Part shown: positions 2,345 through 15,997 of the stretch, one piece after another
Layout: each line of letters opens with the position of its first letter
Position numbering within the stretch: position 1 is the stretch's first letter
NCBI GenBank assembly: GCA_963931925.1
Contig: OZ007571.1
Coordinates: forward strand, 58,801,625 to 58,865,624
Reading direction: 5' to 3'
DNA: 64,000 nt
Origin: Onchidella celtica
Lineage: Eukaryota > Mollusca > Gastropoda > Systellommatophora > Onchidiidae
Translations under genes and position numbers: made by a program
The notes under the pieces: model-generated
Told to the model about the DNA's origin: nothing
Seen by the model: only the letters and a program-made list of their open reading frames with translations
The model's database searches: none

Positions 2345-3478
2345 CATGGAGCTATTAATAACACTGGAGTCCGTACAGCTGATTTCATGCGTGCGCATTA
2401 GAAGGCAATAGTCGCCATATTGTATAGGGCAAGCGCGGACTGCGCCTCAGTGTTTATACATCCGTTGCACTACAGCTTCTTCTTTCTACCTTCCCTTTCC
2501 TTTTCCTCTGCTAACGCCTTCTTTCTTTTCCTCTGCTCCTGTACCTTCTGTTTCTTCTCTGCCTTCTTTCTTTCCTGCTTTAGAAGGAGGGAGAACTGTT
2601 CTCATTCAATTTAAGTCAATGAATTTACTATAAAAATAGACCTTAAAATATAGCCTATGTATTTGGATTTTACCACAATATTATTCTTTGTTTCTCATTA
2701 AATTCAGTTGTTTACTGTTAGCTGGTGTGCAGTGGCTCTTTTGAACTCTTGTTTTGAATATATCATGTAATCATATTAATAATAAATAATAATGGTGCTA
2801 GTGATCCCATACAACACTGATGTCACAATGCAGTTACCAGTGACCGCACCTCATGCAAGGTGTCAGATGAATGCATGTCGGTGTAGTCAGTGCCATATGT
2901 GCATAATCACACTCATAATACCCAGAAAACATATTTTTAATGAAAATCCACCCGAAGTAGAATGTCCAGAGCACTTCTGTGAGCTTACACCAGACCACAA
3001 AATAGAGAAAACTGTAGGGCCGCATATTTACTTTGAATTCAAGATGGAAGTTGTGCGGACACAAAACTTGGGAAAGTTATCCAGGGCAAAATACAAGCTT
3101 AAATAGCAGTCATATATGCTATGTGATATTGTGATCTCTTGATGAGAACGTCACAAAAACACCGGTAGTCTAAATGAAACTGTATGGAAAAACAAACATT
3201 GACCGCATCAACCTGCTGACTGCATCTAGTGCATTGACTATAGGTCTAGAATCTAGATTCACTAGGTGAGAGATTGACCTGTAGCCGTAGGAATCTATAC
3301 ATTTTTTGTTTGGAAAAGCTCTGGAATGCACAATCCAGCTGTGCTCAAACCTCTGAACCACTAGGCTAAGGCTCTTCTGATTTTTAGATATATACTTGAC
3401 TAAGTGACTACAGCCAAGCTTGTAGTTTAAGATGATCTGCTTCTTGGCTATCCAGATCATTTGCTACATCTCGACCTA

Positions 3479-3925
3479 TAGTGAGGCAGATTTGTGTCAT
3501 AATACACACTAATTGTGGGTTTTGTGGTAAAAGCACCAAAACTTCCACAAATGAGGTTAAGGACATACTAAAAGAATTTAGATATATAGTGCCAAGCTGA
3601 ATTTTTTCCCAGAAGCCCATAAATTTCAAAAATCCAAGATGGCCGCCATCCGAGACAATATATCTGTAAACGGTCATATCTTTGCCAATATTTGACACAA
3701 AAACATAAATGAGGAGTCTTTTTGTATGTTTTCACACATAAGGAATCCAATAGAACCATTATTTAGTTGATAAAATGCATATAAAACAACATATTGATCA
3801 AATTCATGTTAAAATTCCAGATAGCCGCCATCCTTGATATCTGTAAATTGTCATATCTTTGTGAATAGTTAAAGCAAAAACATAAATGACTCGTCTGTAA
3901 GTTATTCCAGGTACTGCCCTGTGTA
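3479..3925 (+). repeat. Left terminal inverted repeat of nested transposon, with internal subrepeats
   Basis: It contains two tandem subunits, each with a AATCCAAGATGGCCGCCATC-like core followed by a stretch near CATAAATGAGGAGTC and AACCATTATTTAGTTGATAA. The same subunits lie inverted at 6400-6894. Tandem subterminal motifs of this kind usually serve as transposase binding sites; that role is inferred. Confidence 0.7.
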
Positions 3926-4263
3926 CTTTAATTTTGATCTGTACAATCATACAATCACGAATGCCTGAAGAGGCTGGTCTCTTTTTACAAGATGGAAAAG
4001 AGATTTCTCAAAGGCAAAAGCAAATGATGTGTATGTGTGAGGTCTTGCACACGGCTTACGATGCTTACAGCTGTGAAGAAAATGAACCGAAATCTTTTGA
4101 CGAATGGTGCGTGAAGTGAACTGAGGCCTCTCCACAATTTCAATACTGGTTGATCATCATGCGACTTGAGCTACTAGTATTGGTGTATGTAAGATCTCTT
4201 CGTGATTCTAAGTTCTCGCTTTACGTCTCTGTACTTACAAAGCTCGCACCCTAGTTTTTCGCC

Positions 4264-6310
4264 TTGGACCACACACACTACTCTAGATGGGTGCCAATTC
4301 ACATTCGTGACATGATGACATTGCAGGAACGACATCCTGATATAGCAAACCAGTTTTCTCAAGGAGGATTCGTTGTCCACAAAACAAAGCGACCATTCTC
4401 TGCAATAGCGATCGATCAAGCACACGAACAAAACAACAAAATCGTAAAAGGAGATGGTGGGGCAGTAGGGTTGTTGCAAAACCCCAAAGCTCTATTGCGT
4501 TGGATGGTGGCGGGACCGGAACTAGCAAGGGTTATTGAAGAGTTTGAGGTTAATTGTCTGGATGGAGGTACAGGGATAACTAACAGAACCAATCTCAAGC
4601 ACCACGAGCATACTGCGTCTGCACAAGTCAAATTTGCCAATGAGGTTGGTGCTCTCGTTGAAGCATTTGAAGATATGGGAAATCCATTCATGGAAGAGAA
4701 TGGCGACCTCCTGATTCTTGACAGCCGAGATGTCGCTGATCCAGCTATAGTCCAAACTGTGCGTGTAATAGAGAAGACAGGCCAAAGCCAGTATGACAAG
4801 TACATGACCGAGCGAGTGATAGAGCGAACCAAATCTGTTTTTGATATTATCAGTAAAAATCAAATGCCCTTGTTCAGCAGACCACCATCGAGAGTTCCAT
4901 CAAAAACAAACCAAACCATCACATCCTTAAAGAGTGACTCTTCGTTGTTCTCAAGATTGTACATTGCTAGTCAAACCCGCGATGGAGACTTGGACAATAG
5001 CTTCAAACATGAGAATCATGCATATCCTCCTTCATTGTCCCAGCTAGGAAAACTTCGGTTTGGCACGAAATGTGACCTTGTCGAATGTCTGGAAAAGTTT
5101 TGCACATCTTGTGGAGAGGCTCCATTGATTGACGTCATCATATTGGATGGTGCTGCCATCATCAACATGCTGAAACCAATCGGTGTGAAGTCATTCCAAG
5201 AATATGCCACACGTTTTTCTACCGTTCATCAAAGCCCAGCTGTGAAACGTAACCAGAATGGACATTGTTTGGGATGTGTATCTGGAAGACAGCTTGAAGT
5301 CAACAGCTAGGGAGATTCGAGGAAGAGGTATTCGGCGGCGTGTTACACCTTCCAACACAATCCCAGGTAATTGGCAAGAGTTCTTGAGACTGGCAGACAA
5401 CAAGACGAACTATTCGACTTCTTGGCTCACCAGGTGGTAGAAAACCTTTCTGGAGAGAAGGACGTCTACACAACATGTGGTCAGAATGTGCTGTGCTCTC
5501 GAGTTCACCAAGACATGTCATCTCTTGCACCATGCACACATGAAGAGGCGGACACCAGGATGCTCCTTAACGCAGTTGATTCAGCAAACTAAGGATATCG
5601 CAGAATTATGTTGCGTACTGTGGATACAGATATTCTCGTCCTGGCAGTGTCCACTGTTGTGTGCCTTGAGGACACCGAAATCTGGGTTGCGTTCGGCACT
5701 GGCAAACACCTGAGGTACATTCCTGCACACGACATCGCCAAAGAACTTGGTTATGAAAAGACATGTGCACTTCCCATGTTCCATGCCTTCACGGGTTGTG
5801 ACACTGTGTCTTCGTTTGCTGGCAGGGGAAAAAAGACTGCATTCAACACATGGAAGGCTTTCGATGAGGTCACACCTGTATTTTCTACCTTGTTGATGGA
5901 CCCATCGGCGTTCAACGACGATTGCATGTCTGCGTTGGAGACATAACTCGGCCAGGAAGCACATGTTCACCACCAAAGACAGATCTATGGACAACATACC
6001 CCCAACAGCAGCAGCCCTGCTACAGCACACAAAACGGGCAATATATCAGGGTGGATATGTGTGGGGACAGGCACTCGTCCGTTCTCCAGTTATTCCATCT
6101 CCAGACACATACGGTTGGCGAAAGAGTGTGACACAAGGCTGGCAACCATTCTGGACACTGCTGCCAGAAGCGGTGGCCTCATGTTCTGAATTATTAAAAT
6201 GTGGATGCAAGAAAGGGTGTAGAGGACTATGCAAATGTGTCAGGGCTGCTCTCAAATGTACATCACCCTGTCATTGCAACGGGAACTGTGACCACAATGA
6301 TAGCAATTAG
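4264..6310 (+). pseudogene. Frameshifted XPG/FEN-like nuclease transposase gene with Cys-rich C-terminus
   Basis: The first open segment, 4264-5310 (348 codons from the first ATG, possibly preceded by coding at 3934-4119), includes a QAHEQNNKIVKGDGGAVGL block typical of a large uncharacterised invertebrate repeat-protein family. The similarity then continues in other frames: about 5255-5420 (WDVYLEDSLKS), 5371-5592 (HEEADTRML), 5608-5946 (DTDILVLAV, then FHAFTGCDTVSSFAGRGKK) and 5963-6310. The acidic pairs EEAD and DTD plus the GCD...GRGKK helix-turn resemble the FEN1/XPG catalytic core and its helix-two-turn-helix. The end has a CXC-like cluster (CGCKKGC...CKC...CHCNGNC). At least four frame changes or stops make this copy non-functional unless unseen introns exist. 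Nuclease assignment is motif-based. Confidence 0.6.
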
Positions 6311-6399
6311 GTATTATGATATTCCACATCGGCAATCTAGACAAAGTAACCACTCATATATATTCAAAATTTAAGTGGTAACCATTTTGAATTTTACAT

Positions 6400-6894
6400 G
6401 AATTTGTCAATATCTTGTTTACTATGCATTTTATCAACTAAATAATGTTTCCATTGAACCCCTTATGCATGAAAACATACAAAAAGACTCCTCATTTATG
6501 TTCTTGTGTCAACTATTCACAAAGATATGACAATTTATAGATATTGTGTCTAGGATGGCGGCTATCTTTAATTTTACCATGAATTTGTCAGTATGTTGTT
6601 TTATATGCATTTTATCAACTAAATAATGGTTCCATTAGATTCCTTATGTCTGAAAAAGTACAAAAAGACTCCTCATTTATGTTTTTATGTCAACTATTCA
6701 CCAAAATATGACAATTTACAGATTTTTTGTCTCGGTTGGCGGCCATTTTGGATTTTTAAGTTTTTTGGGCTTCTGGGAAAAAATTCAGCTTGGCACTATA
6801 TCTAATTTCTTTTAGTATGTCCTTAACCTCATTTATGCAAATTTTGGTGCTTTTACCACAAAACCCACATTTATTTCACAAAACTGCTGCACTA
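6400..6894 (-). repeat. Right terminal inverted repeat of nested transposon
   Basis: Mirror image of 3479-3925. Two subunits of about 165-180 bp each contain ATTTTATCAACTAAATAATG, ACAAAAAGACTCCTCATTTA and a GGCGGC(C/T)AT core, ending with the outer TIR that reads into CAGCAGTTTTGTG on the minus strand. Confidence 0.7.
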
Positions 6895-6924
6895 CTATGA
6901 TTTAGGCCTACATATATTATTATG

Positions 6925-6972
<48 letters not shown>

Positions 6973-6973
6973 C
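6925..6973. repeat. CT then CA dinucleotide microsatellite inside the P-like element
   Basis: About 17 CT units followed by CA units. The homologous position in the element at 13043-14921 carries a much longer GT/GA run, so the microsatellite was part of the ancestral element and has changed length. Confidence 0.85.
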
Positions 6974-7260
6974 AGCTCCAGGATCTTAATGGGTCTATGG
7001 CAAAACCAACTTTCCCTCAGGTCTTTGGCATTTTTTTGTGTGTGTGTTTCTGATCTAGGCCTAATTGTTATGTACACCCTATCATTGTTGGTTATCTGAG
7101 AGAAACTGACTTGTAAAGTTTCCTCTGTCCGCACGGTGAATAATTATGGGAAGCTTTCTAGACCAAAAATAGAGAGATGGGTTCACAGGTTTATCCCGGA
7201 TAAAGCCGGGAACTTCATCCAGTACAATAAAAAAAAGATTAGAACTGTGTACACACAGCT

Positions 7261-8797
7261 CAAGGACGATAAATTCTGAAGGCAACAAGAAATAATGTAT
7301 TTTCATGATAATGTCCCCTGAAACCCGTCAATGACAGAAGGAAACCCCGCCAGAAAATAACAATCAGTTCCGTCCTTTAAAATGTGCGTGTTTTGGACCC
7401 AATTTTGACTGATCTCCTGAAATCAGCTTGTCCCAACATGAGTTATCTCTCCTATCTTACTTCTGACTGATGCCCTGAGTACAATGCACGAGTCTGGCCA
7501 TTTTTGATCCAACTTCCATCAATTGCAATTTTCAAACATATTAGCTTCAACCATCCTCGTAGTAGTAGTAGTAGTAGTGATGGTTTGCAATAGTAATAGT
7601 TGTAGCTGCAGTAGTAGTGGTTCTAATAGTAGCGGTAGCAGAAGCAGTGATGGTAATGGTGGTGACAGTAATAATAGTATTTTTGAAGAAAAACGATTTT
7701 CCTTACCACAATGATTGACGTAGCCATTCACACAGTAAATAAGCTCGGAAGGAGGCAGTTTTGTGTGTGTGGGGGGGGGGGGGGGAGGGGGGGGGTGACT
7801 CAGGCATCTGAAAAGGTAGGGGAGGGGTTGAACGCACACACTCTTTTTAGTTATGGTAGTGTACATGTATTGTTTACACACACACACACACACACAAAGG
7901 CGTGGAGGAGGAAAGAAAAAAGAAAAAACTCTCGGAACTACAATGAACTGGGAGAAAGAGAAGAATCAAAATTAACACTAAATTATACCAACAGCGCAAA
8001 ACAAACAAATATCTAATTTATCTAACTTACTGCACATTATTGTTGTTGTTGTAATACGTTCTTCATGTTGTTGTTGTTACTGTTATTATTTTTATGTTTC
8101 AATTAGTTACTTCTCCAATGCACGAACCCCCCCCCCCCCCCCACCCCTTTTTTTTTCCTTTCTTTTTTCCCCAATCTAACATTTGAACTGCCATTAATTC
8201 TCTGACCATCACACCCAAGATAGGAAACATGAAATCCAAAATAATTATACAGTACTGTTGACTGACTCATTCAGTCATCCGATAAAATGTTAAGTCTTTC
8301 AAAAAATTTCTGTAAATGTAATGTAAAAAGTACCCCCAACCCCCACCCCACTCCTTCCAAATACACGAAAATGAAGAAGACGGAAAAAAAGAAAAATCTC
8401 CACTTTCAAAATACAGAAACAGACAGACAGACAAGAGAAATGTCTTCACAGAAAATGTGTACAAACAACTTTGGTGAGGGCTCGACTAAGAGTGACAAAT
8501 TTGGCCAGCCTGTCGTATAATAAAGGTGTGTTTACACTCAGTAGGCCCCGCGCTTTGGTGAGGAGCATGGTGTACATAATTATATAATGTGAGAAGCAAA
8601 ACAGGGATAAGAACTCGTGTTGGGCAAAGCCAATTTCTGGAGATACGTCAAAATTAGGTGCAAAACACGCACATTTTAAGGGACAGAACTGGCTGTTTTT
8701 TTTTTCTGACGGGGTTTCCTTGCTTCACAGACGGGTGTCAAGGGACCTTATCATGAAAATATGTTTTTCGTGTTGCCTTCAGAATTAATTGTCCTTA
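7261..8797. mobile_element. 1.5-kb segment bounded by ~195-bp inverted repeats, probable non-autonomous DNA element
   Basis: The left arm (7261-7455: CAAGGACGATAAATTCTGAAGG... TTTTCATGATAA... AAAATGTGCGTGTTTTG) matches the right arm (8600-8797) in reverse orientation at roughly 80 percent by eye. The interior has only simple sequence: an AGT-rich tract (7555-7690), a GT/G run (7763-7795), CA repeats (7878-7898), TTG repeats, and poly-C (8128-8142). No coding sequence is recognised and I see no clear target duplication. Its class is unknown. Confidence 0.5.
7555..7900. repeat. Cluster of AGT, G-run and CA simple repeats
   Basis: An AGT/TAG trinucleotide-rich stretch, then a long G homopolymer and CA dinucleotides. 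Short serine-, valine- or glycine-rich frames here are artefacts of the repeats. Confidence 0.8.
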
Positions 8798-8942
8798 GTA
8801 AGTTATAAAATTCTGTCTTTCAGTACCCTTTTCTTCTTCATTCTTGGTATTTTTTAAATTGTTTTTTTTTTTTCTCTCTTTCTTCTCATTTTCTGTTTTA
8901 ATTCTGTTAATTTCTACCGAGCTAACTGCCTGCGTACTTACC

Positions 8943-9128
8943 TACCATTTAAATACCTACCTACCTACCTACCTACCTACCTATCTACCTCCCTACCTAC
9001 CTGCCTAATTTACCTGCCTGCCTACCTGCCTATCTGCCTGCCTGTCTAACTACCTACCTACCAACTTACCCACTCACCTACCGACCACCCCATCTGCCTA
9101 CCTACCTGCCTGCCTACCTACTTAACTT
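8943..9128. repeat. ACCT/GCCT tetranucleotide microsatellite
   Basis: About 45 units of ACCT with GCCT, ATCT and ACTT variants. It is the reverse-type counterpart of similar runs at 49918 and 58897. Confidence 0.85.
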
Positions 9129-9251
9129 ACCTAAGTAGATAATGCGTTATTTCTCCTGTCTTCTTTCTCACCTATTTCCTTTTCTCACTTTCTTAGCCTA
9201 ATTCACCGGAAAAAATTATTTTCCTTTCAATATTGATAGACGGATGAGAAA

Positions 9252-9424
9252 AACAGAGAGAGAGAGAGAGAGAGAGAGAAAGAGGGAGAGAGAGAGAGAG
9301 AGAGGCGGAAAGGGAGAGGGGGAGAGAGATAAAGAAAGAAAGGCAAGAGAGAGAGAGAGAGAGAGATGGATGAGAGGGAGAGAGACAAACATAGCCGGAG
9401 AGACAGAGAGATTCAGAGATAGAT
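9252..9424. repeat. GA-rich microsatellite
   Basis: Interrupted GA dinucleotides with AAAG and GGAGA variants. It ends immediately before the 8-bp target-site copy at 9427. Confidence 0.85.
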
Positions 9425-9426
9425 AG

Positions 9427-9434
9427 GGGTAGAC
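9427..9434. repeat. Target-site duplication copy 1 (GGGTAGAC)
   Basis: The left flank of the P element starting at 9435. The identical 8-mer occurs at 13035-13042 and 14922-14929. Confidence 0.75.
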
Positions 9435-12400
9435 CTAGACGGCCTGATATACAGGCCAGCCAGCCGGAAAGTAGGCCAGGTTCATTGGAGGCCCAGCCTA
9501 GTGACTTCTCAGTTACCAAAATGCTACGGTGTGCGTGGGTCTAGAACGAAAGATTGTTCATATTATGGAATGTGAATCTATTTCAGTATAATTTTCTTTA
9601 TGTTTATCTTCACTTCTCTGTCACAACTGCAAAACTTCAGAGTTCTAGTTGTTGCTTATCATTTTGTTTTGCATCATAGAGGCGGATGAATGACGGAGGC
9701 CTAATGGATCATAATATTAACACTGACGTGATGTGAGAGAGAAAGGCGGAGTAGAAGCTGGAGAGCGATACGATTGTATTTCACAGTCCATAATATTTAT
9801 TTTGTTATCTCTATGATGAAGAAATCTAGATAGGTTGGTAGAAAAAAAGCATAATAATTATTATGGATGCCTAAGAGAAAATACAGTACAAATATCAAAA
9901 TGACTATTTTACACCTGGTTGAACACATGATATATTATGTAATTGTACATTAAGTCGGAGGCACTGGCATTAGAGGATCAGATGTTCATTAAAATGTTTT
10001 TGCTCAGTCAAAAAGGTGCATAATATTATTGTCTTCAGATATTTCAACTCACCAAGTGCTGAAGATATTGCTGCTGGTGAGCTCACTCACTTCGACGACA
10101 ATTTTGCGACCTTTCTGCGTTGTTGTTGCACTGAACTGTCAGCCTCCTCTTGACAGCAGAACTGTTTCATTAAAATGTTCACAATCCTGTGTAATGAGGT
10201 GGTACACATACTGATGTCCAGATGAAACAAAGCGGGAAATTCACTGAAAATATTCTTGAGTCTTTCCCTACAACTGGCCTTCGAGTTTTGAGTAAAAAAT
10301 ACATAGGTATATATCAAGAGTTGATACAGACTTTCTGATGGGTAACTCAGACCCCCTCGGTCAAGTGATTCTGTAAAAGATCTGACTTCTTGGGGAACAC
10401 ATACCAAATCTCCCCGCAACTCGCTATGTTTTGAAGCAATGTAGCCCCCGATGTAAAAGAGAGACATCCTCTCATCAACTGACAGGCTACTGGCTGCCAC
10501 TGGGATGTCGTCGACGATCAACAGTTCCTCATCTGTCAGTTCATTGCCGCATAAACTGCACATGTGACTTGACTTGGAGTAGTCAATCTCTGGGTCATGC
10601 TCCAACATCAACTTGGTTTTGTCTATGGCATGGGTGTGTGCAACATCCTGAGCGGTGATGTAGTAGTTGGATCCTGCCGACATACGAAAATGAGCAAAAT
10701 GCTTCTCAATGTCGTCTTGTTGAAAGAAACCAATTGGTACATATTGGTGATGAACATCTGATTCCGTTGTCAACAAGAATTGACAGACGTCAGTGAGGCA
10801 CTAGCAGGTCCAGAAGATAGCATCTGCTGTGTCAGTTGTGAGGGATTTCATTCTTGGGTTTGTGGATGGTTTCATTTGTAATGCGTGGTTGGCCCAAACA
10901 TGGAGCGTTTTCAGTTGTCGATTTCCTTCTTCAGACAAATCAACCACAGCTCTGTCTGGATCCCTTAAGTGTATGCTCTGAACTGGAATTTTGGTGTTGA
11001 AAACTTTCCACAGCTGCAACACTTCATCAATGAATAATGCTGTGTCCTTCCATGATAATGATGCGACACTAGATGATTTCAGAGCAGAACTGGTTCTTTC
11101 AGAAAATACGTTTAGGACAAGAGACACTTTTTGTTTTTCAATATTGCTGGGGTTAAGTGAAGCTTGAGAGTTTTACAAGTGTCATAGCCTCGTGATTATG
11201 AAGGTCCTGGAGATCTGACCACCGTGCTGATTTGGGCTCACTTGAATCCGTGGGGTAAAAGTCGAGTGTTTTGGTTTTTTCCGTTACCCAGTTGTTACGG
11301 ATGTTTTTCATAAGATGGACAGGATCGTACAATAAAAAGAGTGGATTGGAGCTGTCTGATGGAGATTTTGTGATCCAAGGTGTCTGAGGGTCTGTCTTCG
11401 GGAACATTTTAAAAAACTATTGATTCATTCGTTGATAATAGCAAGGACTTTCGCACCACAAGCTTCGAGGCTCAATATCAGACTGGTAACTTGGTCGAAC
11501 TGAAACTGTGCATTGAGAGCACAACAGGGAAGAAGTTTAGCAACAAAACTTTTGGATCCAAAAAAGCACTTCACCATCATGCATAAGAGAGTTGTTGCCT
11601 TTTGCCCTGGAGAGTCAAGTGCATAGCCGTAAATTGTTCCACCTCGGTATGAAATGGACGCTTTGATGTATATTTCATCAATAATGAGGATGCAGTATTT
11701 GCTTCTCTCAGTACTGCCTTTGAAAAAAGAGGCAAACAAGCTTTCATCTGTTGTGTTCTTTGCCATACTAGTGATCTTCTTAAGGGTTGAAATCGATGGC
11801 AACTGCAAGTAATCTCTCATATGTGAATAAAGAGACCTGGACCTTGCATACCAGGAAAACACCAGAAGCAAATCCTCAACTGAGTATATACGTGCATTTT
11901 TGGGACAATTATGTAGTGCCATTTGTCGCACGAGAAAGTCCATTTTCTTATCTGTTGGTTCATTCTCGGCCATAACAAAGCGTAGCAGTTCATCAAGTTG
12001 GCTCCAGCAGTTTATGTCTTTAATGAACGGATGATGGATTCTTCTTCGACAATGATAGTATTCACATTTTAGAAATGGAACATTGGAGTCATGACAAACT
12101 TCAAAGTAAATTGAAAACTTTGGAATCGGTCCAGTCCTCTGACGACTAATGAAAATATACAATTTTGATTCTACATCTGGCGCCAGCAACCCTGCATCTA
12201 GGCTATTCAACTTTGTAGAAAACATGTCATGAAAGGTATCTGTCTTGAACAGATCCAGTTCTTGAAATTGTGGCATTTCATCTATATCAACTACACGAGC
12301 CTTTTGTGTGGACATTTTTGTGGGAGGAGGAGTACTCTTTGATGTACTGGGAACACACGAAGGGGGTACATTTGGAAAAATTGAGGGAGGAAGTGCAGGA

Positions 12401-13034
12401 ACATGATATCTTCCATGCTGGCGTACCATTGGAGTATCCTTTGGCCAGTGCAGTGCACAAACACCCATGTAGTCAGTAACTTCTTCTGTTTTGAGTTGAT
12501 TAGGTAAGCTGTTAATCCAGACACGACGTTTGTCTGCATCCTTAGGAAACCTGTACACAGGAATTTTCTCGTCGGTAGGTTGATTTCTGTACCCTGGTCT
12601 TACATCCAAAAACAGAACACTTCCTCACCATGTTTGCTGCCACCAAAAATATATGCCAATCCAGTAAGATGTGATGAAACAATGTCTGGAACTATATATA
12701 TGTTATGATTGTTCCTGATCACAAAATGAACAGTTAATCCAACAAAATTCAAAACACAATGGTAGAACACATTCTAAGCCACATTTAAAAGTCCCAGCAA
12801 AACAGTAATGACAAGGTGACAGGATGTGTAAATGTAGCGTACCTAAGTATTCTTGTCTCGATACCATTCTCTTTGGCACTAGTAAACTGTGGTACCAGTG
12901 AATAAACGGTATCTGGCATCCTCGTACTCGATATTGCCAGCCATATCAAGTTACGTAACAGGGCATCAGTGTCTTGGGCCTCCAATGAATTGACCTAGAT
13001 TTCGGTTACCTGGCCTGTTAGTAAGGTCGCCTAG
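9435..13034 (-). mobile_element. P-superfamily DNA transposon (copy A) with degenerate transposase
   Basis: A 3600-bp element flanked on both sides by GGGTAGAC. The left terminus starts CTAGACGGCCTGATATACAG and the right terminus, read inward on the minus strand, starts CTAGGCGACCTTACTAACAG. The two remain alignable for about 60 bp to a shared TTCATTGGAGGCCCA. Its single gene, on the minus strand, is a THAP/P-type transposase. Known: P elements make 8-bp duplications and autonomous copies are about 3-4 kb, which fits. The terminal sequence itself differs from the CATG-type end of the neighbouring element. Confidence 0.75.
10087..12631 (-). pseudogene. Broken P-element transposase (THAP9-like)
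   Basis: The likely start is ATG at 12631 (Met-Val-Arg-Lys then CSVFGC), the first half of a THAP C2CH finger. A one-base shift near 12600 moves the frame to 12609-11425, which supplies the rest of the finger (YMGVCALHWPKD) and the P-type core. Further lesions: a stop and shift between 11425 and 11407, a shift near 11153-11127, and a TAG stop at 10801. Recognisable P/THAP9 blocks are LLYDPVHLMKNIRNNW (about 11330-11280), PIGFFQQDDIEKHFAHFRMS (about 10740-10680) and NYYITAQDV. Known role: THAP finger binds the transposon, and an RNase H-like core cuts and joins DNA. With four or five disabling changes it cannot encode a full protein. Confidence 0.85.
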
Positions 13035-13042
13035 GGGTAGAC
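13035..13042. repeat. Target-site duplication copy 2 (GGGTAGAC), shared by two adjacent elements
   Basis: It forms both the right flank of the element ending at 13034 and the left flank of the element beginning at 13043. Confidence 0.75.
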
Positions 13043-13672
13043 CATGGAGGTACTAATAACACTGGAGTGCGCACAGCCCTCTTCGCTTGCCCTGCGAGCC
13101 GCGCACTATTGAAACCCCAAAATGGCGGAAAAAGTAGGGCAAGGTACGGCAGCACAAGGCCCGCCCAGTACACTATTGTATGTAATAGATAGGGCCTAGT
13201 CAGCGCTGTTTTTTCTCTTTTCACGGTGGTGATCAAAATTAAAAGATACAAATAGAAATAATAACATTTGTTATTTACGGATTATCATATACTTGTGTTA
13301 TTTTCTTTTAAAGTGTTTGATAATAAATACAAATTTATGATTTATGCTGTTTTTATATTATGGTATTTTTATTAATTGGTCAATCGTTTAGAAGTAAAAC
13401 GGAAGGGAACTATGTAGTACTATTTTTACCGCATGTTAGTTTAGCTCATGATGAGTCATGATAAAAGAAAAAAAAAATCAGCGTGTGGACAGAGGAAACT
13501 TTACTAGTCAGTTTCCCTCAGATAACCAACAATGAGAGGGTGTACCCATAACAATTATAAAAAACACACACACAAAAAAAAACATGCTAAAGAACTGAGG
13601 GAAAGTTGGTTTTGCCATAGACCCATTAAGATCCAGGCAGCTGGTGTGTGTGTGTGTGTATGTGTGTGTGTG

Positions 13673-13749
<77 letters not shown>

Positions 13750-14921
13750 CATAATTATAATAATATATGTAAATCATAGGCCGAGATGTAGCAAATGATC
13801 TGGATAGCCAAAAAGAAGAACATCTTAACCTACTACAAGCTTGGTTGTACTCACTCAGTCAAGTATATATATAAATCAGAAGGGCCTTAGCCTAGTTATT
13901 CAGAGGTTTGAGCACAGCTGGATTGTGCATTCCAGAGCTTTTCCAAACAAAAATGTATAAATTCCTACGGCTACAGGTCAATCTCTCACCTAGTGAATCT
14001 AGATTCTAGATCTTCAATGCACTAGGTGCAGTCAGCACGTTGATGCGGTCAATATTTTTTTCCATACAGTTTCATTTACCAGTGTTTTTGTGGCTAATCC
14101 ACGTTTTGTGACGTTCTTATCAAGAGATCACAACATCACATAGCATATGATTGCTGTTTAAGCTTGTATTTTGCCTTGGATAACTTTCCCAAGTTTTGTG
14201 TTCGCACAACTTCCATCTTGAGTTCAAAAGTAAATATGTGACCCTTCAGATTTCTCCATTTAGTGGTCTGGTGTAAGCTCACAGAAGTGCTCTGGACATT
14301 CTACTTCGGGTGGATTTTCATTTAAAAAAATGTTTTCTGGGTATTATGAGTATGACTATGCACACATGCCACTGACTGCACCAACATGCATTCATCTGAC
14401 ACCTTGCATGAGGTGCGGTCACTGGTAATTGCATTGTGACATCAGTGTTGTATGTGCATCAACTGGGATCAATAGCACCATTATTATTTATTATTATGAT
14501 TACATGATGTATTCAAAACAAGAGTTCAAAAGAGCCGGTGCACACCAGCTAATAGTAAACAACTGAATTTAATGAGAAACAAAGAATAATATTGTGGTAA
14601 AATCCAAATGCATAGGCTATTAAGGTCTAGTTTTATAGTAAATTCATTGGCTTAAATTGAATGAGAACAGTTCTCCCTCCTTTTAAAGCAGGAAAGAAAG
14701 AAGGTAGAGAAGAAACAGAAGGCACAGGAGTAGAGGAAAAGAAAGAAGGAGTTAGCAGAGGAAAAGGAAAGGGAAGGTAGAAAGCAGAAGCTGTAGTGCA
14801 ACGGATGTGTAAACGCTGAGGTGCAGTCCGTGCTTGCCCTATACAAGATGGCGACTATCGCCTTCTAATGCGCACGCATGAAATCAGCTGTACGGACTCC
14901 AGTGTTATTAATAGCTCCATG
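13043..14921 (-). mobile_element. Non-autonomous P-like element (copy B), 1.88 kb, with intact 8-bp duplication
   Basis: The termini are inverted: CATGGAGGTACTAATAACAC at the left and, read inward, CATGGAGCTATTAATAACAC at the right, with similarity persisting for about 36 bp. GGGTAGAC flanks both ends. CATG termini resemble those of P elements. It lacks any transposase gene. Its right 1.4 kb is homologous to copy C at 2345-7134 and includes a long GT/GA microsatellite and a 64-codon low-complexity frame (14652-14846, minus) shared with that copy. It would have to be mobilised in trans. Confidence 0.75.
13644..13752. repeat. GT then GA dinucleotide microsatellite
   Basis: About 18 GT units (with a TATG interruption) followed by more than 35 GA units. 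Overlapping valine/cysteine- and glutamate/arginine-rich frames are artefacts. Confidence 0.9.
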
Positions 14922-15223: not shown

Positions 15224-15657
15224 GCCTCTGGATGAACATGTCCTCCTAAGTTTGCCTCTAGATGAACATGTCCTCCTAAGTTTGCCTCTAGATCAGATGA
15301 ACATGTCCTCCTAAGTTTGGCTCTAGATGAACATGTCCTCCTAAGTTTGCTTCTAGATGAACATGTCCTCCTAAGTTTGCTTCTAGATGAACATGTCCTC
15401 CAAAGTTTGCCTCTAGATGAACATGTCCTCCTAAGTTTGCCTCTAGATGAACATGTCCTCCTAAGTTTGCCTCTAGATGAACATGTCCTCCGAAGTTTGC
15501 TTCTAGATGAACATGTCCTCCTAAGTTTGCTTCTAGATGAACATGTCCTCCTAGGTTTGCCTCTAGATGAACATGTCCTCCTAAGTTTGCCTCTAGATGA
15601 ACATGTCCTCCTAAGTTTGCCTCTAGTCGAACATGTCCTCCTAAGTTTGCCTCTAGA
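15224..15657. repeat. 30-bp minisatellite, ~14 copies
   Basis: The unit is about CTCTAGATGAACATGTCCTC plus CTAAGTTTGC. One unit is extended by 6 bp near 15290, and point variants occur (CTTCTAG, CCGAAG, CCAAAG). Because 30 is divisible by three, the array is open for over 120 codons and would read as a ten-residue repeat, but there is no supporting gene context. Confidence 0.9.
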
Positions 15658-15997
15658 CCAATGTGTATCCCTTTCAGAATATTTCAGACAATTTTAATAT
15701 TATTAGGTATATGTCTCTCAGTTACGATAGAATATTAAGATCCCGTCTAAATTTATTAGTTGTATCTAGATTATTAAAATGTACAATAGGAAATAAAGCA
15801 AATGTAGACAATGATTTGAGTGGACAGAATTGAAGAGATAAATAATTTTTTTAAAGTTAATCAGAAACAAAGTACTAAGTACCTTATAATTGTATTAGTC
15901 ATCTCCCCTCATTGCTTATATTTGCACAGTATTTACTTTGAAAGAGGGAGACAGAAACAGATAGAGAGGTAGATAGATAGATAGAGAGAGAGAGAGG

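Follow-up and report, generated by a model that had tools for sequence, protein, structure and literature searches.

A DNA transposon of probable AcademX kind with a FEN/XPG-like nuclease and a candidate D-D-E transposase region in Onchidella celtica

What kind of mobile element lies in a 64,000-nucleotide stretch (the window) of contig OZ007571.1 of the gastropod Onchidella celtica, and what would a transposon do with a nuclease of the type known from DNA repair? Positions 3479-6894 of the window are a copy of a DNA transposon, for which the original prediction, made from the letters of the sequence, had proposed terminal inverted repeats (TIRs), a 3-bp target-site duplication (TSD), a FEN/XPG-like nuclease, a CXC tail and membership in the Academ superfamily. 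We read the element, with a probability of about 0.76, as an AcademX-type DNA transposon that moves by cut-and-paste. Its longer relatives appear to encode, in one protein, a Cys/His-rich N-terminus followed by a putative D-D-E transposase, a FEN/XPG-fold nuclease and a CXC-like zinc cluster.

Ends, copies and related families

The edges of the window element read 5'-CTA-TAGTGAGGCAG...GCTGCACTA-CTA-3', with the CTA duplication on both flanks. The inverted ends are about 0.4 kb long and show 88.6% identity over 385 columns (3510-3889 against 6492-6873), the roughly 30 terminal bases being less similar and lying outside this alignment. The TIRs and the duplication are thus as originally predicted, and the 348-codon frame (4264-5310) and its motifs are likewise present in the window.

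A search of the 1.14-Gb host genome with the 348-aa piece gave 120 matches, and the 18 rows with at least 90% identity represent 17 copies including that of the window, one copy occupying two rows. Searched at the DNA level with the left end, also for a possible swarm of short non-autonomous copies, the genome gave only 16 left and 17 right ends; both ends are paired in 16 of the 17 copies, c06 having a right end only. Nested inserts excluded, the copies are 3.3-4.5 kb long. The ends are about 22 kb apart in c03 and about 23.5 kb apart in c16, where the two ends were matched by their orientation and identical TSDs, the interiors having been read near the right end only. Copy c08 (G000:C12, ~20963515 to 20972160) is interrupted by an insert that by eye resembles a non-LTR (long terminal repeat) retrotransposon and has a 1,000-aa frame.

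The original prediction had proposed a search for 3-bp duplications in other copies, and a perfect 3-bp TSD is found in all 16 end-paired copies, with 13 distinct sequences (CTA, TTA, TCA, TAA, AAA, TGA, TAT, TAT, GTT, TAG, GTA, GAA, AAT, TCA, TGA and TTT). Since a perfect 3-bp TSD has a chance of about 0.016 per copy, the agreement in 16/16 is not a product of chance. With the ends placed at TAGTG/CACTA, none of the 16 matches over 4 bp. T occupies position 1 in ten copies and A occupies position 3 in ten (binomial p 2e-5, uncorrected for scanning all positions).

TIRs are present in four families, the other three of which are 35-51% identical to the nuclease of the window family and have TAGTG...CACTA-type ends in common with it. 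The presence of the same protein between TIRs in three further families upholds the predicted link of this protein family to a mobile element. The L023 element (6,159 bp, ends TAGTGGGCTTGTTAAC...GTTAACAAGCCCACTA) has a 1,392-aa open frame; five of seven inspected copies of its family have both ends, four of these with a 3-bp TSD, and L023 itself is the one without. The L028/L029 family measures 5.7-6.4 kb in most copies and has the ends TAGTGGGCTTGC...GCAAGCCCACTA; at the right end of L029 (L094 ~1040) the terminal 8 bp are repeated (CCCACTA TCCCACTA), and the TSD fits the outer copy only. The L020/L027 family (ends TAGTGGGGCAGATAA...TTATCTGCCCCGCTA) has seven right ends in the host genome and the TSD CAC at L027, the sole copy examined at both ends. 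An apparent open frame of 2,021 aa at G000:C5:74325363 was rejected as an artefact caused by a stretch of N. Two viral-contig scans revealed no relatives, and a scan of bacterial and archaeal genomes revealed one among 77 matching stretches, L103 (JAJRVU010000273.1, 1-4401), whose single 1,466-aa open frame holds all the parts. The L103 contig is binned as Planctomycetota, and the stretch is probably eukaryotic DNA within that bin.

Domains of the encoded protein and their decay

The relative L007, with an unbroken 1,089-aa frame, reveals what the window copy has lost upstream of the nuclease. Three acidic positions are prominent there when 11 chosen sequences (alignment A2) or 7 (A3) are compared. 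The D in VDN(L/I)DHNP is conserved in 6/6 covering sequences, the D in VDQPL in 8/9, and the E in HEQ and the H in GGLH in 10/10 each; all three acids and this H are kept in L103 at 22-28% identity. The conserved D, D and E probably form a transposase triad of the RNase H type, and the G/AxxH-like residues of the relatives may stand at the place of the C/DxxH motif that excerpts of PMC9587614 describe in five other superfamilies. The candidate D-D-E region and the nuclease are in the same open frame in L007, L023 and L103, and a Cys/His-rich stretch at the N-terminus of the longer relatives was spotted by eye. The candidate D-D-E region was missed by the original prediction and is the new result of this follow-up. 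At E values up to 10, Pfam gave no family for the frames of L007, L023 and L029 and two chance-level matches for L030. L103 matches DUF6589 (PF20231) weakly (E 0.003, below the cut-off); any other Pfam matches of the region are at chance level. DUF6589 is above its cut-off at 13 other loci of the host genome, perhaps related transposases.

The predicted FEN/XPG nuclease is confirmed by the fold of the model. The modelled nuclease of an unbroken relative, a structure that the original prediction had called for, has a predicted local distance difference test score (pLDDT) of 83.7, and the 50 Foldseek rows listed contain FEN/XPG/EXO1/GEN1/XRN-type entries only. In agreement with this, clustered acidic residues are invariant in 9/9 chosen sequences in the order seen in the superfamily, and presumably correspond to the FEN1 residues, as judged by motif order. 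The domain thus resembles FEN1, EXO1, XPG, GEN1 and XRN in fold and acidic residue pattern and differs from them in its low identity (7-16% among the matches listed), in being part of a transposon protein and in staying under the Pfam and PDB sequence thresholds. The sequence searches against FEN/XPG that the original prediction had also suggested returned nothing significant. Pfam found no XPG match in 19 members, one of which matched XRN_N below the cut-off with an E of 0.053; a PDB search with the 1,089-aa protein gave no matches, and one with a single 112-aa piece gave chance metalloprotease matches only. Profile A1 found two unrelated weak matches, A2 one with an E of 0.47, and A6 seven rows, the top four being EXO1 at E 0.16-0.25, below significance.

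The C-terminal tail follows the pattern CxCKxxC...CxC...CxxxCxC, in which five cysteine columns are invariant in 11/11 chosen tails and later ones are partly lost. The predicted CXC tail is borne out in its cysteine spacing and not in its family: one of the 11 tails matches the Pfam CXC family PF03638 (E 0.0033), the fully scored L103 tail has 15.8 bits where the cut-off is 23.5, and tail profile A4 found one defensin match only (E 0.01). By its spacing, the tail is best called CXC-like rather than CXC proper.

The window gene is broken by three in-frame stops and three frameshifting indels in the compared region, and apart from the reference copy c07 only c11 among the other 16 copies is free of stops and frameshifts there. 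Across the coding part that was compared, the copies differ from c07 by 0.4-0.9%. The ratio of nonsynonymous to synonymous polymorphism (pN/pS) over all pairs is 1.15 in the transposase half and linker, 1.29 in the nuclease and 0.37 in the short CXC part. In subsets of copies it ranges from 0.39 to 3.31 and is 0.54 for the nuclease of five copies with a shared deletion, on small counts. In our reading the copies have decayed largely neutrally since they inserted, and we claim no selection.

The deletion in the window copy takes both D residues of the candidate triad and leaves only the E. One deletion junction, with microhomology GTC, is common to five copies at different sites, and a second is common to two further copies; the window junction is its own, and the idea that it derived from the five-copy deletion was dropped since the junctions differ. 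Junctions shared at different sites mean that these deletions preceded the spread of the copies, the deleted forms having been moved in trans. If the D-D-E triad is read correctly, movement in trans with protein from elsewhere is necessary, and the window copy, lacking the first two acids, would have depended on protein from another source for any move made after its deletion. Microhomology-flanked internal deletions are products of abortive gap repair after excision in other cut-and-paste elements, and those of the window family may have arisen in the same way.

Relation to AcademX and other superfamilies

The AcademX nuclease is of the XPG type; a whole-word search found, among the matches listed, no paper joining Academ with XPG. 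AcademX is one of the lineages within Academ (Kapitonov and Jurka 2010; Kojima 2020, as given in citing papers). In the excerpted description (PMC10045372), the TSD is 3 or 4 bp in AcademX and 9 or 10 bp in AcademH, and an encoded nuclease as against a helicase is named as the likely cause of this difference. Because the short TSD and the encoded nuclease match this printed description, AcademX membership is probable, not proven; the predicted Academ affiliation is retained on these two features. Excerpts of PMC10294476 report Academ as bivalve-rich and put the mean for their curated Academ elements at 5,565 bp, to which the 5.7-6.4 kb of the fuller relatives is near; the window-family copies are shorter, and in the window copy most of the transposase is gone. 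AcademH would belong to the same superfamily if this placement is right and differs in its TSD and its helicase.

CXC-type cysteine domains occur in KDZ proteins, the T-N-A leaning of the TSDs resembles the target preference of PIF/Harbinger, and Pfam contains a Harbinger-type transposase model, which none of the frames of L007, L023 and L029 matched with E values of up to 10 allowed. The window family shares the 3-bp TSD with EnSpm and canonical Harbinger (excerpts of PMC12730594); PIF/Harbinger differs in that the relatives of the window element have no Pfam transposase match and carry a FEN-fold nuclease. EnSpm/CACTA also shares the letters CACTA at the ends, whereas its termini are 5'-CAC..GTG-3' (same excerpts) and those of the window element have the reversed polarity 5'-TAGTG...CACTA-3', which excludes EnSpm/CACTA; the FEN-fold nuclease is a further difference. 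Zisupton/KDZ elements are likewise DNA transposons, and Zisupton is excluded by its TSD of 8 bp (same excerpts), as against 3 bp here.

Several results weigh against our interpretation of the element and its domains. The nine best Foldseek matches have modest template modelling (TM) scores by query length (0.41-0.51) with root mean square deviations of 8.9-22. An XPG_I search of the host genome matched four loci, none of which is the window element, and hhalign gave no match to three host XPG_I exons. The AlphaFold2 model of the D-D-E region is poor (pLDDT 45.1), and no Pfam or NCBIfam family was matched by the L007 protein and no Pfam family by three window pieces. The N-terminal third of the L023 protein was looked for and not found in c07, c08, c15 and c17; the remaining fully read copies of the window family are none of them longer than c07, and all align to it. 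Outside the window family a clean 3-bp TSD is present in 7/12 copies (4/5, 1/1 and 2/6 in the three families), and the other four L028/L029 copies have a 4-bp TSD (AGTA) in one, a 3-bp TSD in one when the right end is moved 8 bp outwards, and no match in two. A duplication of another length, named by the original prediction as a sign against it, is absent from the window family (0/16) and present in one diverged family.

The element may instead belong to a separate, perhaps unnamed, DDE superfamily with a FEN-like nuclease. Academ was compared by description and not by transposase sequence, the distant relative L103 has its weak DUF6589 match, 3-bp TSDs are also made by EnSpm and Harbinger, and the TAGTG...CACTA termini and the CXC-like tail do not appear in the excerpts of the Academ description (PMC10045372). 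As the TSD length, the encoded nuclease and the length of the fuller relatives all agree with what is printed for AcademX or Academ, we consider this unlikely.

Alternatively, the nuclease could be the main recombinase, its FEN-fold domain cutting the ends, with the upstream D, D and E forming no DDE site. The D-D-E model is poor, the nuclease is the best supported enzyme, and its region is retained in amplified deletion derivatives that lack the first two triad acids. However, exact short TSDs are typical of DDE strand transfer and are seen in 16/16 copies, the triad is kept down to 22-28% identity, and the deletion derivatives can be moved in trans while decaying largely neutrally, which makes this alternative quite improbable. 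That a host gene fragment was captured by an unrelated transposon (transduplication), as the truncated and broken window copy might suggest, is extremely improbable because independent capture would not give four families with the same protein inside TAGTG...CACTA-type ends, the others at 35-51% identity.

Insertion site, possible mechanism and significance

The flanks of the AcademX-like element, joined from 2345 on the left, align across the junction to inverted 14921-13478 over 1,472 columns at 86% identity, with 124 gaps, some of them in a microsatellite, and one CTA at the junction. Inverted arms of 1.1-1.4 kb, starting CATGGAGCTATT, bracket a P-like gene (10087-12609, minus strand) with a TNP-like RNase H domain above the Pfam cut-off and a THAP domain slightly under it; no 8-bp duplication was seen at the edges of 2345-14921. 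The empty site predicted near 13780 holds, with a single CTA and flanks aligning through the junction. The simplest reading is that 2345-14921 is one P-like structure; the "sister P-like copy" in which the empty site was placed would be the other arm of the same structure. Outside and adjoining the P-like arm lies a direct duplication (1597-2346, about 0.46 kb spacing, repeats D9 and D20), and a 30-bp minisatellite at 15235-15744 is open in frame for 126 codons. The features are listed in Table 1.

Table 1. Features of the transposon copy and its empty site, in window coordinates
Feature	Position	Strand	Remark
Whole transposon copy, 3,416 bp, internally deleted	3479..6894	+	one of 17 family copies found
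Left TSD, CTA	3476..3478	.	flank repeat
Right TSD, CTA	6895..6897	.	flank repeat
Left TIR, start TAGTGAGGCAGATTTGTG	3479..3889	+	end alignment
Right TIR, end CACTA	6492..6894	-	end alignment
Tandem duplication of ~181 bp (85%) in right inverted repeat region	6386..6747	+	repeat family D8
Deletion junction, ~1.02 kb of c07 absent (c07 element 568-1591), microhomology TTG	4045..4046	.	
Remnant of probable transposase with candidate catalytic E (HEQNN, codon 4426-4428) and linker, frame broken	4046..5052	+	
FEN/XPG-like nuclease domain, split over shifted frames and stops	5053..6040	+	
CXC-like cysteine cluster at C-terminus (gene stop 6308-6310)	6200..6289	+	
Empty target site, single CTA on minus strand (TAG at 13777-13779 on plus strand)	13777..13779	-	opposite inverted arm

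We propose that the Cys regions bind the TAGTG...CACTA ends, that the D-D-E region performs cutting and joining, its 3-bp stagger being seen through the TSDs alone, and that the nuclease processes flaps or branched DNA in excision or gap repair. A bolder proposal, which we regard as rather improbable, is that transposition requires the FEN-fold domain as a second enzyme, which trims flaps or gaps left by the transposase. If so, AcademX elements would supply a repair step themselves, and the short TSD of 3-4 bp, as against 9-10 bp in AcademH, would be set by that repair and not by the geometry of the transposase; the uniform 3 bp in 16/16 copies speaks somewhat against nuclease trimming and for a fixed geometry.

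The kind of element is already known, and the value of the present analysis lies in sequence-level detail of the poorly studied AcademX group. A protein family without Pfam match is now tied to a mobile element with exact ends. Such genes may pass as uncharacterised host genes in annotation, and with their reversed CACTA-like ends the elements can be confused with EnSpm. Why a cut-and-paste transposon carries a repair-type nuclease, and whether the length of the duplication depends on that nuclease, have now become testable questions.
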